From contig NZ_AUCA01000006.1 in the NCBI RefSeq assembly GCF_000429525.1, forward strand, positions 1 through 64,000: 64,000 bases of DNA, read 5' to 3'. Source of the DNA: Alicyclobacillus contaminans DSM 17975 (GTDB lineage Bacteria > Bacillota > Bacilli > Alicyclobacillales > Alicyclobacillaceae). Positions 44,678 through 51,002 of the stretch are shown in pieces. The stretch's first letter is position 1. Every line of letters begins with the position of its first letter. The notes beneath the pieces are model-generated. The model did not search any database and was not told the DNA's origin. It saw nothing but the letters and a program-made list of their open reading frames with translations. The translations under genes were made by a program, and so were the position numbers.

Positions 44678-44929
44678 ATGTCCGAAAAACGACAGGTACC
44701 CACGTTTCGACTTCACTTACCAGAGCACGCGCAGCCGCTGGAGGGACCGGTGGTCTGTCCGGATCGGACGGAGGTCGCCACCAATCTGACGACCATTCAC
44801 CACATCCTGAAGGCGCACGATGCCTGTCTCGTGTACGCGGGGCAGTGGGTGTACGTGCCGTTTCACGCCATCCGCAAAATCGAACGCGGCGCACATCGGT
44901 TCCAGTTGCCCTGGCCGCTCAATCCATGA
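44678..44929 (+). CDS. Hypothetical small protein
   Basis: 83 residues, plus-strand gene inside a minus-strand region. AAGGAG lies 6 bases upstream of the ATG. No membrane segment is visible; the pattern CLVYAGQWVYVPFHAIRKIERG near the middle looks like a small beta-barrel edge. No family was recognised. It is convergent with the coat ATP-grasp gene (24-base gap). Confidence 0.6.
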   Translation: MSEKRQVPTFRLHLPEHAQPLEGPVVCPDRTEVATNLTTIHHILKAHDACLVYAGQWVYVPFHAIRKIERGAHRFQLPWPLNP

Positions 44930-44953: not shown

Positions 44954-46258
44954 TCAGCCGCGTCGATTGGCACCGGTGGTGAGCGGAGCCTGCGCCTGCC
45001 GCAGGTGGTCCAGGTGATTCAGCACCCCGACCAAAGAGCGCGAGCGAATATCCGCCTCGTCAAATTTCATGGGCTTCGCATTGGCCTCGAAAAACCAGGG
45101 ATGTCCTTCGTCATCCACGCCCACATCCATCGACATTTCGCCAAGCGCATAGTGATAGTGTGCGTCGATAGCTTTTGCGCAGCGGATCAGCATGTCGTCC
45201 ATCCGTTGATCCACGGCTTGACTTTGCTCGCCGAAATGCTTCGTCATCACTTCGGTCGCATCGGCGATGCTGCCGCCGTTTGGGACATGGGTGGTGATGG
45301 TATGCTGACCGGCCACGCGAACGCCTTTCCCCACCACGGACCACAGATCTCCCCGCTTTTGCAGCAGCACGCGAAAGTCACAGGGTCGGCCTTTCCACAT
45401 CAGCAGCGGGACCGCCGCCTGAATCACGTAGCGCCCCGGCACGCGTTCCTGGCGAATCATCTGCAGCAATCGGCGAAAGGTCGGTGCCGAGAACGTTTTG
45501 CAGCTGGTGTTTTTCAGCACGCTGACGGTGAAGCCACTCGCTGCATGGTCAATTCGAATCATCCCGTGTCCAATGCTGCCGCCCGCAGGCTTCAAGTACA
45601 CGGCGCGATGCCGCACCAGCATCTGTTCCAGCGCCGTCGCCGCCAGTTGATTGACGGTTTCCGGCAGATACTGTGCGAGCCCCGCCGCCCGAATGACATC
45701 GTAGACTTCCGCCTTGTTGAAGTAGTCCGGATTGAACATCGGGATGGCGAGCGAGCGTAAAATCTGCTTCGCCTGCACGGTTGCCGGTTGACGTTCCAAA
45801 TACCGGGTAGGAATGCGGTTGTACATTGCCTCGGGATGCGGAACGGGGAGCGCCAACCAGCGACGGTACCCGAGCCGGACGTACCCGGTCCAGGTCGCGT
45901 CCTCCGAGACCGCATTCGTCGGAACCACGTACATCAGACAGTTGCGTCGCCGCGCGACGCTCATCAGGTCGCGAAAGCAAGATCTCGAACCAATGAACTG
46001 GCCTCCCCCCGCGCCTGCCAGAATGGCGTAGACGGGTCCCGCCGTCCAAGCCCCCGCCGTCCGATGAACGCCAATCCGCTGCCGATATCGCACCTGCCCG
46101 CGCGGCAGGCGAGATACCAGCGGCACCCGCCAGTTCGACAGACGAACCAGCGCATTCCCGCCGAGTTTCCGAACTGTTTCAGGAACCAGAATCACCACCG
46201 ACCATCTGCCGTTCCCTCGGTCCAGCCACACGACTTCCCCATTCCATGTTCGGCTCAC
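44954..46258 (-). CDS. YheC/YheD-family ATP-grasp protein (spore coat)
   Basis: 434 residues. A soluble N-terminal domain precedes an ATP-grasp fold. Visible elements are VYLKPAGGSIGHGMIRID (the lysine and glycine loop), VIQAAVPLLMWKGRPCDFRVLL, and the metal-binding strand MDVGVDDEGHPWFFEANAKP with the conserved Asp and Glu-x-Asn. ATP-grasp enzymes join a carboxylate to an amine or thiol through an acyl phosphate. B. subtilis YheC/YheD are coat-associated proteins of unclear activity. GGGAGGGAGG precedes GTG 46258. It is the last gene of a four-gene operon with two more YheC/YheD proteins and an amidoligase. Confidence 0.88.
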   Translation of the reverse strand: MSRTWNGEVVWLDRGNGRWSVVILVPETVRKLGGNALVRLSNWRVPLVSRLPRGQVRYRQRIGVHRTAGAWTAGPVYAILAGAGGGQFIGSRSCFRDLMSVARRRNCLMYVVPTNAVSEDATWTGYVRLGYRRWLALPVPHPEAMYNRIPTRYLERQPATVQAKQILRSLAIPMFNPDYFNKAEVYDVIRAAGLAQYLPETVNQLAATALEQMLVRHRAVYLKPAGGSIGHGMIRIDHAASGFTVSVLKNTSCKTFSAPTFRRLLQMIRQERVPGRYVIQAAVPLLMWKGRPCDFRVLLQKRGDLWSVVGKGVRVAGQHTITTHVPNGGSIADATEVMTKHFGEQSQAVDQRMDDMLIRCAKAIDAHYHYALGEMSMDVGVDDEGHPWFFEANAKPMKFDEADIRSRSLVGVLNHLDHLRQAQAPLTTGANRRG

Positions 46259-46285
46259 GACCGTGCCTCCCTCCCGTCCTTCGGC

Positions 46286-47776
46286 CTATCCTCGCCCCAC
46301 AGCCGCGCCCGCGCGCGCCGTCGTCCCCCGCTGTGGTCGCCGTGCCGATCCCGCCCGTCGAATGGTGAGTGGAAGTCCCCACACCGTCCGCACATCGACC
46401 GATTCGTCCCACGTTTGTCCGCGGCGGATCATGTCCATCAGCGGATCGATATATTCTTTGTACCGCTCATACGCGCTCAGTCCGGAGAGCGCGCGCAAGT
46501 TCCGCTCAGCAATCGGGCGCAGCAGGTCTTTATCTCCGGTCAGGAATGCGGTTTGCAGCCGCTCCTGGTACAGATCCACCAACGGCAGTTCCCGATGGTG
46601 AACCGCCACGACGTAGGCCAGACACAATGCGGCCATCGTGATGTCCGGATGAACGACGAAACTGCCGGGGGTGCGGTATTCAAACCCTCCGTAGTCCTTG
46701 TGCCGAATGTCTCCGAGAAATCCGTAGCGCTGCCGCCGTAGGCGGGCGGTTCGAGCGTCCTCCACCAGCATCAGCGGCAAGCCCACGTAGTTGTCGAGAG
46801 CTTTCACGAGGCGACTGGAGAAGGGTATGCTGGAAAAATGAATGTGCCCACCGGTCCAGTAGCGCCGGAACGGCATGCTCCCCGCGCGCCACTCGACATT
46901 TGCTCGGTTGATTTTTTCGATGGCCTCCAACATGGCTTCCCGCAGGTTGGCCACCAGTCCAAGGGGTGTGCTGTCCGGCTCTGGTCGAAGCTCCATCAGC
47001 GGCAGCCGCTTTCCATCAAACTGGATGCTGCGGTCATCGCAGCCAACGCGCCCCTTGCGTGTGAAATACCGACTGGCGAGGACCATCTTCCCTTCAGCGT
47101 TCCGGAGAATCAATTCCACGTCCGCCCCGAGCAGGAACGCCCCCGGCTCCACGCCGGAACGCTGCTCTTCTCGGCGCACGAACGACGTCACCGCATCGGC
47201 GTACAAATCCAACAATCGCCCTAGCAGCACGGGGGCACCGGTGACGTCGAGGACGTACAGGACGCCTTTTTGCCCCATGCCGATGCTGACGAGACCGTGG
47301 TCCAGTCCCAGCGTGTGCAGTGCGCGGGCCGCCAAGCGCACGGCGCGCATCGTCGCTTTGTCTTCGTCCAGCGCCACTTCTCGAAACGTGTCCTGCAACT
47401 GCTGAATTCGCTGGTTGATCCAGACGGGGGCATTGTCGGACCGAAAGCAGGCCAACGGTGTCAGGTCGAACAGCGGAATGCGATACTGTCGTACCAGCCG
47501 TACATCCTGCGCTCCGTTCCTGTCCTTCGACCAAACGCGAATCCCCATTCGGCGCAGAAACCGCGCCATGGACGCGCGGCTGAGCGTCCGCGCCATGGCG
47601 TCCTGCGGATTGAGCGCCTCGGCTTCCGGGGGGTCTGCCTCCGCGTGCCGTCCCCAGCGGATCACCGTATCCCCGCTGGCCAGATGCGTACTGGAGAGGT
47701 AGGGCTTCAGCGACGGTACCCTTTTCAACAATCGCTTGGCCGATGGTTGCCCAGCGTGCAGCAAATAGCAGGTCAT
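46286..47776 (-). CDS. COOH-NH2 ligase-type amidoligase (phage phiEco32-like type 2)
   Basis: 496 residues from ATG 47776 (AAAGGAG upstream; a GTG nine bases earlier is too close to it). The core resembles the glutamine-synthetase-fold amidoligase family: PGAFLLGADVELILRN (first acidic metal ligand), then WTGGHIHFSSIPFSSRL (conserved His pair) and YGFLGDIRHKDYGGFEYRTPGSF. An N-terminal part of about 190 residues is unassigned. Such enzymes make amide or peptide bonds between carboxylates and amines with ATP. It sits between two YheC/YheD genes on the same transcript, which suggests a joint pathway. Confidence 0.72.
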   Translation of the reverse strand: MTCYLLHAGQPSAKRLLKRVPSLKPYLSSTHLASGDTVIRWGRHAEADPPEAEALNPQDAMARTLSRASMARFLRRMGIRVWSKDRNGAQDVRLVRQYRIPLFDLTPLACFRSDNAPVWINQRIQQLQDTFREVALDEDKATMRAVRLAARALHTLGLDHGLVSIGMGQKGVLYVLDVTGAPVLLGRLLDLYADAVTSFVRREEQRSGVEPGAFLLGADVELILRNAEGKMVLASRYFTRKGRVGCDDRSIQFDGKRLPLMELRPEPDSTPLGLVANLREAMLEAIEKINRANVEWRAGSMPFRRYWTGGHIHFSSIPFSSRLVKALDNYVGLPLMLVEDARTARLRRQRYGFLGDIRHKDYGGFEYRTPGSFVVHPDITMAALCLAYVVAVHHRELPLVDLYQERLQTAFLTGDKDLLRPIAERNLRALSGLSAYERYKEYIDPLMDMIRRGQTWDESVDVRTVWGLPLTIRRAGSARRPQRGTTARAGAAVGRG

Positions 47777-47801
47777 GGCCCACAACTCCTTTCAGGGTCG
47801 G

Positions 47802-49181
47802 TCACCCCTTCGCCTTGGCCAGCCGCAATGCGTACTCCATTGGGCGTGAAAACGCCAGGTCCACAATGTCCTGGCGACCCGTTTCTGTGGTTGGCGATTT
47901 CCATGGTTTGGAGTTCACCTCTATGATCCAAACGTGTCCGCGATCATCCAGTCCGACGTCAATCCCCAATTCTCCGAACGTCTTCCCGGATTGCGCCTCA
48001 ATCACGTCTGTCACCAGACGGCTCACTTTGCGAATCATGCGCCTCGCCCGATTCCGCCGATGCGGTTTGGCGTACAGTTCACGCAGCACCGTGTCCACGG
48101 ACAGCGCTTCGCCACCGCTGCTCAAGTTGGACGTGAACTCGCCGGATCTGGCGACGCGGGCGAACATCTTGGTGCGTTTCCACTCCCCGGTGCCGTCCCG
48201 CTGCAGCACAATCCGGATGTCGAACGGCCGCTGTTTGTGTGTCGCCAACGGAATGCCCTCCTGAAGCAGGTAGGGACGTGACTTCAAGCGTCCCTTCAGG
48301 GCGTCGAGCAGCGCCTCCGGTGTGGCGGCCCGCGCCGTTTGCTTGCCGTTCTGCTGTTTCAGTTCATACAGGTATCCGGTGTCCCCCTGACGCGTGATGC
48401 GAATGATGCCGAGCCCCAGGCTTCCGTGAATCGGCTTGAGAAACACGACGGGATGCTGTTTGACAAATGGGACGAAATCTCCGTGTTCGCTGTATTTCAA
48501 CGTCTGTGGAATATGCGGCCGCGTGCGTGCATCGGCGGTCAACCACTCGTGCACCTGCCGTTTGTCAAAAAATCCGTCGTTAAAAATGCGCTGCTCGTAC
48601 AATTTGCTGAGCTTTCTCCGTTTTTCGATGTACTTTGGATTCCGTTCAACTTTTCTTGAAATCACCTGATCATAAATGGCGTCCGGAAGAGGAAGTAGCA
48701 ACGGATTCCAATTTTCCCCATCCAACACGTAGCCGTGGACGCGTTGGCGGGCAAAATCCACATCCTGAATCCCAAACAGATACACGAGCGCGCCCAACTT
48801 CCGGCCGGCTTCCGCCATTTTGCGCAACCCGGGCAGCTGCTTGGAAGACATCAGACACTTCCGTTTGGCATCCCAGCGCGGATTGCAGAGAATACCGATG
48901 GTCGGCCCAACATGCACGCGGTCCCCCGCCCACCTGGCGGAGACCCAGTCGATGGGCACATGCAACAACACCTGCTGGATGAGACCCTCGCTGAACCACA
49001 CCGTGTCCACCGGCACAACGGGATCGACGGTCAACAGCGCATCGATCACTTGGCGGCCAAAGGAACACCGGCAGGTCGCCATGCGCCGGCGGTCTGCCGG
49101 GAAGATGGCCTGGGGATGGGCGCGGATTTGGGGACGCGGATTGGGAAACACAACAATCCGATACGTGCGCTCTTCGCCCAT
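47802..49181 (-). CDS. YheC/YheD-family ATP-grasp protein
   Basis: 459 residues from ATG 49181 with AAAGGGG upstream. The N-terminal region contains QVIDALLTVDPVVPVDTVW. ATP-grasp elements: VVFLKPIHGSLGLGIIRI, RPYLLQEGIPLATHKQRPFD and the metal strand GIDVGLDDRGHVWIIEVNSK. The spacing to its neighbours is 14 and 25 bases, giving a tight operon. It keeps the ATP-grasp catalytic residues, so activity is likely. The substrate is unknown. Confidence 0.88.
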   Translation of the reverse strand: MGEERTYRIVVFPNPRPQIRAHPQAIFPADRRRMATCRCSFGRQVIDALLTVDPVVPVDTVWFSEGLIQQVLLHVPIDWVSARWAGDRVHVGPTIGILCNPRWDAKRKCLMSSKQLPGLRKMAEAGRKLGALVYLFGIQDVDFARQRVHGYVLDGENWNPLLLPLPDAIYDQVISRKVERNPKYIEKRRKLSKLYEQRIFNDGFFDKRQVHEWLTADARTRPHIPQTLKYSEHGDFVPFVKQHPVVFLKPIHGSLGLGIIRITRQGDTGYLYELKQQNGKQTARAATPEALLDALKGRLKSRPYLLQEGIPLATHKQRPFDIRIVLQRDGTGEWKRTKMFARVARSGEFTSNLSSGGEALSVDTVLRELYAKPHRRNRARRMIRKVSRLVTDVIEAQSGKTFGELGIDVGLDDRGHVWIIEVNSKPWKSPTTETGRQDIVDLAFSRPMEYALRLAKAKG

Positions 49182-49195
49182 GCGGATGGCCCCTT

Positions 49196-50386
49196 TCAAC
49201 GATCTGATTCAGCGGAAACCCCGGTTGCCCTGATAGCATATTCAAGGAGCCCACGAAGTGACAGTTCACGGACATCGCCGGGCAGCGCTCGGAGCATGCG
49301 GCGCCCTGGCGTGGGATTGACCTCGAACAGCGTGACGTCCAGCGTTGGCCGAATCGCTAAATCCACCCCCACTTCCGCATAAGGACCATACAGTTCATAC
49401 AGCCGGTCCGCCACGGCGAGGGCGACCGTATCCATCCGCCGCAATGCCTCCGCCACGGTTCCGGGGCAAAGTTGCTGCAACGCGCGCTCCGCCGGTATCG
49501 CCTCTCCGCCGCTGTGGATATTGGTGGTCACAGCGCCCGTACGGCCCACGCGCGCCACGCGCGCCATGACCTGGAACTTGTCTGTGCATTGGACGAGCCA
49601 CCGAAAATCGATGGGGCGCTCGTCTTTGGTGCGCGGCAGCGCCACGGTCTGTTGCACCAGACAGCGATGAAGCCGCATGTCAGACCAGAATTGTGCCAAT
49701 CCAGCGTCCTCCGCCAAACGCCGCTTCATCACCCGAATCTCCGGACGCCCTTTACCGGCGGGGGGGATCCGCTGCTCGTACAAGGCCACCGGCTCACCGT
49801 CCTCCACCATCACACGCACCACCCCCACCCCTTGCGCGCCGTTCAGCGGCTTTAGATACACGTCCTCGTACCGGGAGAGCGCCCGCAGCACGTGCTCGGG
49901 ACCGTTGGCGACATGGGTGTGCGGCAACGCGTGCCGGATGGACGCGTGGTCATTCATTTTTTGATAGAACGTCCACTTATTGCTGATCTCTCGCGGCAGG
50001 GTGTGAAGGCGTTGGGCCGAAGCGAAGTGTCTCAAGTCTGCCTGAACCGTCCGCGGCGAAGCATGCCGAAAGCTGCCAGATCTGCGGATCACCACATCCG
50101 GATACGCCATGGCCACCGATTCCCAACGTGCACCGCTTTCATCCCACCGCCATCCGTTCCGCGTGCGCGCATAGCCGGGAGTCAGCACCGTCACATCCAC
50201 GTCCAGTTCCTTGCCGAGTGACGTCAAATCCCGAAACATCGACGTTTGTTCGCCAAACAGGGCTCCACTTTTCTCCGGTCCGTCGACATACACGGCGAAC
50301 ACCGTACCGTTCCGCGTCGACCTGCGCGCACGAGATGGCGGTTTGCTCGCTCTCCCGGCGCCGCGCATGCCCGTCCAAATCGCCAC
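49196..50386 (-). CDS. YheC/YheD-family ATP-grasp protein
   Basis: 396 residues from GTG 50386, which has GGAGG seven bases upstream; the ATG at 50392 touches that site. ATP-grasp elements: VYLKPLNGAQGVGVVRVMV, then CLVQQTVALPRTKDERPIDF, and the metal strand VGVDLAIRPTLDVTLFEVNP. The EVN motif ends in PTP rather than the SKP seen in the sister genes, so the acceptor may differ. It is the first gene after cotE and its terminator-like hairpin. Confidence 0.86.
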   Translation of the reverse strand: MAIWTGMRGAGRASKPPSRARRSTRNGTVFAVYVDGPEKSGALFGEQTSMFRDLTSLGKELDVDVTVLTPGYARTRNGWRWDESGARWESVAMAYPDVVIRRSGSFRHASPRTVQADLRHFASAQRLHTLPREISNKWTFYQKMNDHASIRHALPHTHVANGPEHVLRALSRYEDVYLKPLNGAQGVGVVRVMVEDGEPVALYEQRIPPAGKGRPEIRVMKRRLAEDAGLAQFWSDMRLHRCLVQQTVALPRTKDERPIDFRWLVQCTDKFQVMARVARVGRTGAVTTNIHSGGEAIPAERALQQLCPGTVAEALRRMDTVALAVADRLYELYGPYAEVGVDLAIRPTLDVTLFEVNPTPGRRMLRALPGDVRELSLRGLLEYAIRATGVSAESDR

Positions 50387-50405
50387 AACCATCCCTCCTG
50401 CAAGA

Positions 50406-50431
50406 AAGGCGGGGCCTCTTCGCCCCGCCTT
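50406..50431 (-). terminator. Attenuator-like hairpin between cotE and the coat-enzyme operon
   Basis: A perfect 10-base stem AAGGCGGGGC / GCCCCGCCTT, loop of six, then TTTCTTG on the minus strand. It lies 32 bases after the cotE stop and ends about 15 bases before the ribosome binding site of the next gene. It would lower read-through into the ATP-grasp genes. Confidence 0.7.
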
Positions 50432-50462
50432 CTCCGTGGATTCGGCCTTGCGGTAAAATTCG

Positions 50463-51002
50463 TCAGTCCTCGATGTCTACTTCCTCCAGCAGATCTTCTT
50501 CCTCTTCCATAAAGTCGTCGTCTTTCTTCTCCACAGCCTCGCAGGTTACAATGCACAGTTTCGTCCGGCCAATCACTTCCACCCCCAGTTCTTTTTCCAC
50601 GCGGACCAAGATCTCTGATCCGTTCCCCGTCACTGCAGCATCCAGGCAGTTCGGGTTCTGGAGCACCCGAACCTCCACTTCCCTTGTCTCCCGGTCTGCC
50701 GACAGGTCGAGGTCACGAAGCGCAATCTGCTCCACGTACGATACGGTGTCTTTGGCGACGGCGGTTTCCGAATTGCCGTTGTAGGAGTACCAGACGTTCA
50801 CGTCGAATCGTCCGCGCACTTCCACGTAATCTCCGACCAATTCGGCCTCGTACGAATGATTCATGACCCAGCATCCGCCAATCGTGGTCGGCCGGTTTGC
50901 CGGGCGAATCGTGTACGTGGTCTGCGAGTACTTGCTACCTCGCCCACAAACCGCGTGGGCCATGATTTCGCGGTAGTTTAAATCTTTGTTTGAGAGCACC
51001 AT
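50463..51002 (-). CDS. cotE: Outer spore coat morphogenetic protein CotE
   Basis: 179 residues from ATG 51002, with AGGAGGAGG upstream; the frame extends to 51026. Landmarks: REIMAHAVCGRG, TTIGGCWVMNHSYEA and FDVNVWYSYNGNSETAVAKD, as in Bacillus CotE. The C-terminus is a Glu/Asp-rich tail (DDDFMEEEEDLLEEVDIED). CotE is made in the mother cell and organises the outer coat. It is the first gene on this strand before the YheC/YheD cluster. Confidence 0.95.
   Translation of the reverse strand: MVLSNKDLNYREIMAHAVCGRGSKYSQTTYTIRPANRPTTIGGCWVMNHSYEAELVGDYVEVRGRFDVNVWYSYNGNSETAVAKDTVSYVEQIALRDLDLSADRETREVEVRVLQNPNCLDAAVTGNGSEILVRVEKELGVEVIGRTKLCIVTCEAVEKKDDDFMEEEEDLLEEVDIED

Follow-up and report, generated by a model that had tools for sequence, protein, structure and literature searches.

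What do three ATP-grasp proteins and an amidoligase do beside cotE, whose product organises the outer spore coat? The locus that raises this question lies in a 64,000-nucleotide stretch (the window) of contig C6 (NZ_AUCA01000006.1) in the 3.27-Mb genome of Alicyclobacillus contaminans DSM 17975. On the minus strand, the gene order is rny, ymdB, spoVS, M19 dipeptidase, cotE, ATP-grasp A, ATP-grasp B, LIG (a COOH-NH2 ligase), ATP-grasp C, miaB, ylbF, and mutS. Our best explanation, to which we assign a probability of about 0.5, is a mother-cell amide-ligase pathway that would add amino acids or short peptides to a coat protein. The evidence comes from the conservation of the cotE-LIG pair, natural fusions of the two ligase types, their conserved catalytic residues, and relatives in which cotE or an ATP-grasp gene is split by skin-like elements. 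The features concerned are as follows:

50463..51002, minus strand: cotE, outer spore coat morphogenetic protein of 179 residues with the acidic tail end EEEEDLLEEVDIED (PF10628, 199 bits; AGGAGG before the ATG)
about 50402..50431, minus strand: predicted intrinsic-terminator hairpin GGCGGGGC-gaagag-GCCCCGCC, then TTTCTT, in the gap between cotE and grasp A (sequence; our own scan of related loci)
49196..50392, minus strand: ATP-grasp A (YheC/YheD family), 398 residues, alternative start GTG 50386; catalytic residues intact
47802..49181, minus strand: ATP-grasp B (YheC/YheD family), 459 residues; catalytic residues intact
46286..47776, minus strand: LIG, COOH-NH2 ligase (phiEco32-like type 2), 496 residues (PF14395, structure models, PDB comparison, and hhalign)
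44954..46258, minus strand: ATP-grasp C (YheC/YheD family), 434 residues, GTG start; catalytic residues intact

A preliminary description of this DNA, made from its letters alone, had named the four genes after cotE as three YheC/YheD ATP-grasps and one COOH-NH2 ligase, and Pfam scores far above the cut-offs bore this out. ATP-grasps A, B, and C scored 165, 255, and 209 bits against PF14398 (ATPgrasp_YheCD; curated cut-off 26.8), and LIG matched PF14395 over the full length of the profile (positions 1-254 of 254; 329 bits, E 1.7e-98; curated cut-off 25). The hidden Markov model check that was meant to refute the amidoligase identity thus failed to do so, and the predicted fold described below agrees. 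LIG is the third of the four genes and not the fourth, as had been stated. The reported gaps of 14-27 bases hold inside the four-gene set (about 14, 25, and 27 bases between A, B, LIG, and C) but not from cotE to grasp A, where about 70 bases contain the terminator hairpin. None of these gaps has room for a graspetide-type precursor gene; a distant precursor is possible. The starts of grasp A, grasp B, and LIG were inferred from ribosome-binding sites, and the nearest LIG among named genomes was that of Alicyclobacillus pomorum (73% identity).

Conservation was assessed in 301 Bacilli-class genomes, including that of the window. PF14395 was found in 161 of them and PF10628 in 210; both were present in 161, LIG only in 0, CotE only in 49, and neither in 91 (Fisher 2.5e-41, with kinship ignored), so that no genome had LIG without CotE. 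Whether the set is conserved next to cotE in related genomes, a question raised in the preliminary description, received a strongly positive answer, as the neighbourhood was found again across about 60 genera, far beyond chance. At 60 loci in 58 genomes of many genera, LIG was always downstream of cotE save for second copies in two genomes. There were two architectures, cotE-LIG-mutS and cotE-grasp-grasp-LIG-grasp(-grasp), with the variants cotE-(three grasps)-LIG and cotE-grasp-LIG. The linkage extended to deep lineages (f16, f26, and f7), where one genome (G088) had the two genes on separate contigs. The exception was G142, in which cotE and LIG were unlinked and LIG stood at a contig start, possibly an assembly effect; G171 was scored LIG-negative, but its contig ends inside LIG after cotE-grasp-grasp. 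The LIG-negative genomes sampled all belonged to one clade on the mutS tree, in which cotE lies directly before mutS, and Bacillus subtilis, in the control set, gave no PF14395 match. The mutS tree thus indicates that the absence of LIG is a single event. The gene orders across lineages indicate a conserved core of cotE and LIG, to which some lineages have added the ATP-grasps at this locus. At least one YheC/D gene was present somewhere in all 161 LIG genomes when the lists were compared by eye. A Paenibacillus record still annotates the LIG gene as a hypothetical protein, and one genome carries a second, degraded cotE fragment (G120:C8:87800-87982) with an intact cotE elsewhere.

The catalytic part of LIG could be assigned to a fold by structural prediction. 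An AlphaFold2 model of this domain (residues about 205-475) from 16 sequences reached a predicted local distance difference test score (pLDDT) of 88 and a predicted template modelling score of 0.89, and its match to YbdK (1r8g) had a Z-score of 17.1 over 237 residues (root mean square deviation, 3.1). Z-scores were 16.1 for plant gamma-glutamylcysteine ligase, 15.4-15.7 for PafA/Dop (Pup ligase and depupylase), and about 12 for glutamine synthetases. The predicted domain is therefore of the glutamine-synthetase/gamma-glutamylcysteine-ligase fold, and a PDB sequence search with the LIG profile gave no match. LIG shares this fold with YbdK and the gamma-glutamylcysteine ligases (GCS2-type, glutamine synthetase superfamily; Z 16-17), but differs from them in sequence (10-17% identity), in its fusion to an ATP-grasp-like half, and in its coat-gene neighbour. 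Across 34 LIGs, 37 columns were invariant, including D219/E221, E262/R264, H311/H313, R347/R348, and E366, and these residues clustered in the motifs GxDxE, ELRPxP, GGHIHFS, RRxxYGxxGDxR, and FEYRT. Phage relatives of LIG (L099-L109 and L111) kept the motif core; one of them (L111, MW202697.1) lies near an annotated class I glutamine amidotransferase and a second predicted amidoligase.

Residues about 52-184 of LIG resembled the C-terminal lobe of ATP-grasp proteins. Modelling the whole length of LIG from six close sequences gave a low pLDDT (42.5), and we used that model for its N-terminal part alone. For this weak model of the N-terminal half, the best Foldseek matches were all of the ATP-grasp fold (RimK, Ddl, ArgX, and PsnB), and the hhalign comparison with ATP-grasp proteins was marginal (E 9e-5, probability 59%). 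Because the N-terminal half is without the conserved ATP-grasp catalytic set, it is probably a pseudo-ATP-grasp.

In the ATP-grasp proteins themselves, the catalytic set scored (Lys, hinge Gln, Asp/Arg, Mg-binding Asp, Glu, and Asn; K, Q, D, R, D, E, and N in order) was essentially invariant in 81 proteins from every slot and complete in A, B, and C. The slots represent separate old lineages, with 8 label changes versus 44 in shuffles. RimK and similar protein-modifying ATP-grasp enzymes add amino acids to the acidic C-terminus of a protein and share the fold; grasp A and grasp B matched the RimK and glutathione-synthetase models only weakly, and the NCBIfam equivalog or subfamily cut-offs for RimK/glutathione synthase were not reached (best 26 bits versus 143-350).

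Enzymes of both the ATP-grasp and the glutamine-synthetase-fold superfamilies spend ATP on activating a carboxylate, which they then transfer to an amine, and protein fusions are standard evidence of a shared pathway. The earlier proposal that the two folds act together gains from natural fusions of LIG with a YheC/D ATP-grasp (L052:8458-12549, L055:8425-14632, and L011:4997-7927), which are second copies beside Mur ligases in two genomes (L052 and L055) and also occur in one Haloplasmataceae bin. Neighbouring ligases of these kinds often work in succession (PMC4431377). The L055 fusion is also adjoined by genes for a phosphoenolpyruvate mutase and a thiamine pyrophosphate enzyme, and these neighbours suggest an amide product containing a phosphonate.

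The gap behind cotE bears on how the enzymes would be expressed. In our own scan, 54 of 61 loci had a hairpin with a T-run after cotE, and 1 of 61 had one after LIG. Mononucleotide shuffling of the gaps, an undemanding control, produced such a structure in 0.8% of cases; a packaged promoter/terminator scan did not list the hairpin after cotE. Since the terminator lies between them, we rejected a plain operon of cotE and the four genes. In the window, grasp A starts about 10-16 bases beyond the hairpin, which leaves little space for a separate promoter. Expression of cotE and the enzymes is thus probably coupled by partial read-through of the terminator, which would yield much CotE and little enzyme; alternatively, a promoter within cotE may drive the ligase genes. 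Upstream of cotE, a sigma-E/sigma-K consensus scan run without controls gave a few sigma-K-like or loose sigma-E-like matches in three loci other than those of the Alicyclobacillus type. At the other end of the set, an open reading frame of 83 residues (window 44678-44929, plus strand) converges on the operon and has relatives in the corresponding position of several Alicyclobacillus-type genomes; it was dropped as a member, having no family, the opposite strand, and a patchy occurrence.

Several relatives carry cotE or grasp C in two pieces. In Alicyclobacillus suci, a 2.85-kb element interrupts cotE; when the two pieces are joined at the 8-base repeat CAAACGAA, they encode an uninterrupted CotE of 179 residues ending in LEEVEIED. 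A 4.0-kb element at a different codon of cotE in G066 is resolved by joining at AACAACACAGA, and a 13.6-kb element in grasp C of G281 (L115:822-15709) by joining at the 11-base repeat TTTGATAAGGC, which gives an enzyme of 441 residues. In each element, a serine recombinase (PF00239+PF07508+PF13408) stood beside the 5' piece, the direct-repeat cores were 8-11 bases long, and the joined frames had zero internal stops (L010, L112, and L115). Splits of cotE at two positions were found in Alicyclobacillus suci/fastidiosus and in f12 genomes of g22 (L010:3670-7062, L009:1407-7121, L112, L113, and L114), and G181 of g100 has the same split. The A. suci element also contains a strong hairpin, CCCCCGC...GCGGGGG (L010:6710-6760).

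Sporulating cells excise the documented gene-intervening elements of the skin type (PMC5595907, PMC4191935), and a prophage integrated in sigK is known from Alicyclobacillus (PMC13141910). The elements described here resemble the sigK, spsM, gerE, and yabG cases in the serine recombinase by the 5' piece, the short direct-repeat core, and the in-frame rejoining, but differ in their targets, cotE and a coat-linked ATP-grasp gene; the literature searched contained no report of an intervening element in either. Because such insertions are tolerated where a gene serves the terminal mother cell only, the split grasp C is, by analogy, independent evidence for a sporulation (mother-cell) use of the enzyme. 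The spore use proposed earlier is backed by these elements and by the published control of B. subtilis yheC/yheD by sigma-E/SpoIIID (PMC517825).

If a coat protein is the substrate, the acidic C-terminus of CotE would be the most specific candidate. The last residue of CotE was Asp in 50 of 62 proteins from genomes with LIG versus 2 of 27 from genomes without it, and position -4 was acidic in 58 of 62 versus 5 of 27. Usual ends were IDDLD or EVEIED with LIG and EEE, SSSFQ, or SNKN without; in deep LIG lineages, the ends varied (IIIEDLK, FADELD, and ADLLL). The association had a p value of 9e-9 for a motif picked after viewing the tails, and we set it aside as a statistical test, the mutS tree giving a single independent contrast. 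Within that one evolutionary contrast, the acidic terminus appears constrained only where LIG is present. PafA, whose likeness to LIG is one of fold only, offers a precedent together with Dop for a glutamine-synthetase-fold enzyme that activates the acidic residue at the C-terminus of a protein. Alone or together with the ATP-grasps, LIG might act on the CotE tail, adding residues or activating the terminal Asp, as PafA does the terminal Glu of Pup, for covalent joining to coat material; ancestral Bacilli would have had this activity, and the B. subtilis clade would have lost it, after which its CotE tail would have drifted. In this specific form, we consider the proposal rather unlikely.

Taken more broadly, the locus would encode a CotE-linked module that serves sporulation in the mother cell. 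In it, LIG and the ATP-grasps would work one after another, each converting a carboxylate with ATP into an acyl phosphate that then reacts with an amine, and the product would most likely be an amino-acid or short-peptide modification of a spore-coat protein. The spore-coat pathway of the preliminary description is thereby partly supported; it had overlooked the cotE-LIG core, the ATP-grasps as an add-on, and the conserved terminator after cotE. Several observations weigh against a coat-modifying pathway. YheC/D proteins remain in genomes without LIG, and YheD of B. subtilis made no contact with morphogenetic proteins in a bacterial two-hybrid assay (PMC7911427). The tail difference amounts to one contrast because the mutS tree shows LIG to be missing through one event, the terminator speaks against simple co-transcription with cotE, and a consensus scan recognised no sigma-E/sigma-K promoter upstream of cotE in Alicyclobacillus-type loci. 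Excision of the intervening elements during sporulation is likewise something that we infer from sequence and from the documented cases.

The product could instead be a free small peptide-like metabolite or polymer laid in or under the coat, which we regard as possible. Tandem ATP-grasp and glutamine-synthetase-like ligases are typical of peptide-metabolite pathways (PMC4431377, citing Iyer 2009), the nearest solved relatives of LIG are gamma-glutamylcysteine-type ligases, and two of the fusions have a Mur ligase as neighbour, one of these also the phosphoenolpyruvate mutase; however, the set is linked to a structural coat gene and is without a transporter or other biosynthetic enzymes, and the constraint on the CotE tail points weakly to a protein partner. 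The fusion copies beside Mur ligases would also suit a modification of spore cortex or germ-cell-wall peptidoglycan, with the cotE linkage reflecting shared sporulation timing, and D-Ala-D-Ala ligases (ATP-grasp) and Mur ligases are the functionally best-known relatives. This is unlikely, given that LIG never occurs without CotE, that the adjacency is kept over very deep lineages, and that YheD of B. subtilis forms a shell on the spore surface (PMC7911427). The same protein is coat-associated and self-interacting (PMC7911427), which, together with the resemblance of the LIG N-terminal half to a degraded ATP-grasp, would fit structural coat components that have lost catalysis; the essentially invariant catalytic residues in all ATP-grasp slots and in the LIG catalytic domain make this very improbable.

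Iyer, Abhiman, Burroughs and Aravind reportedly predicted in 2009 that CotE/YheCD/COOH-NH2-ligase neighbourhoods of Firmicutes serve coat or wall modification. Our analysis has the families, the cotE neighbour, and the general coat/wall prediction in common with theirs; it adds the almost exceptionless pairing of LIG with cotE, the loss of LIG in one event, the terminator behind cotE, the split genes, the tail hypothesis, and the probable pseudo-ATP-grasp half of LIG, in which overlap with the 2009 prediction is possible.

Most of what is known about coat chemistry comes from a lineage without LIG. LIG accompanies cotE in nearly all lineages of spore-forming Bacilli in the sample, the B. subtilis lineage excepted, which suggests a coat modification that is invisible in the usual model organism. 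If the proposed pathway is correct, the spore-forming Bacilli of our sample that do not belong to the B. subtilis clade, such as Alicyclobacillus and Paenibacillus, would carry an enzymatic coat modification that is not known to have been sought, and CotE would be a defined protein in which to seek it. The split cotE of named relatives would provide a simple marker of gene assembly in the mother cell.

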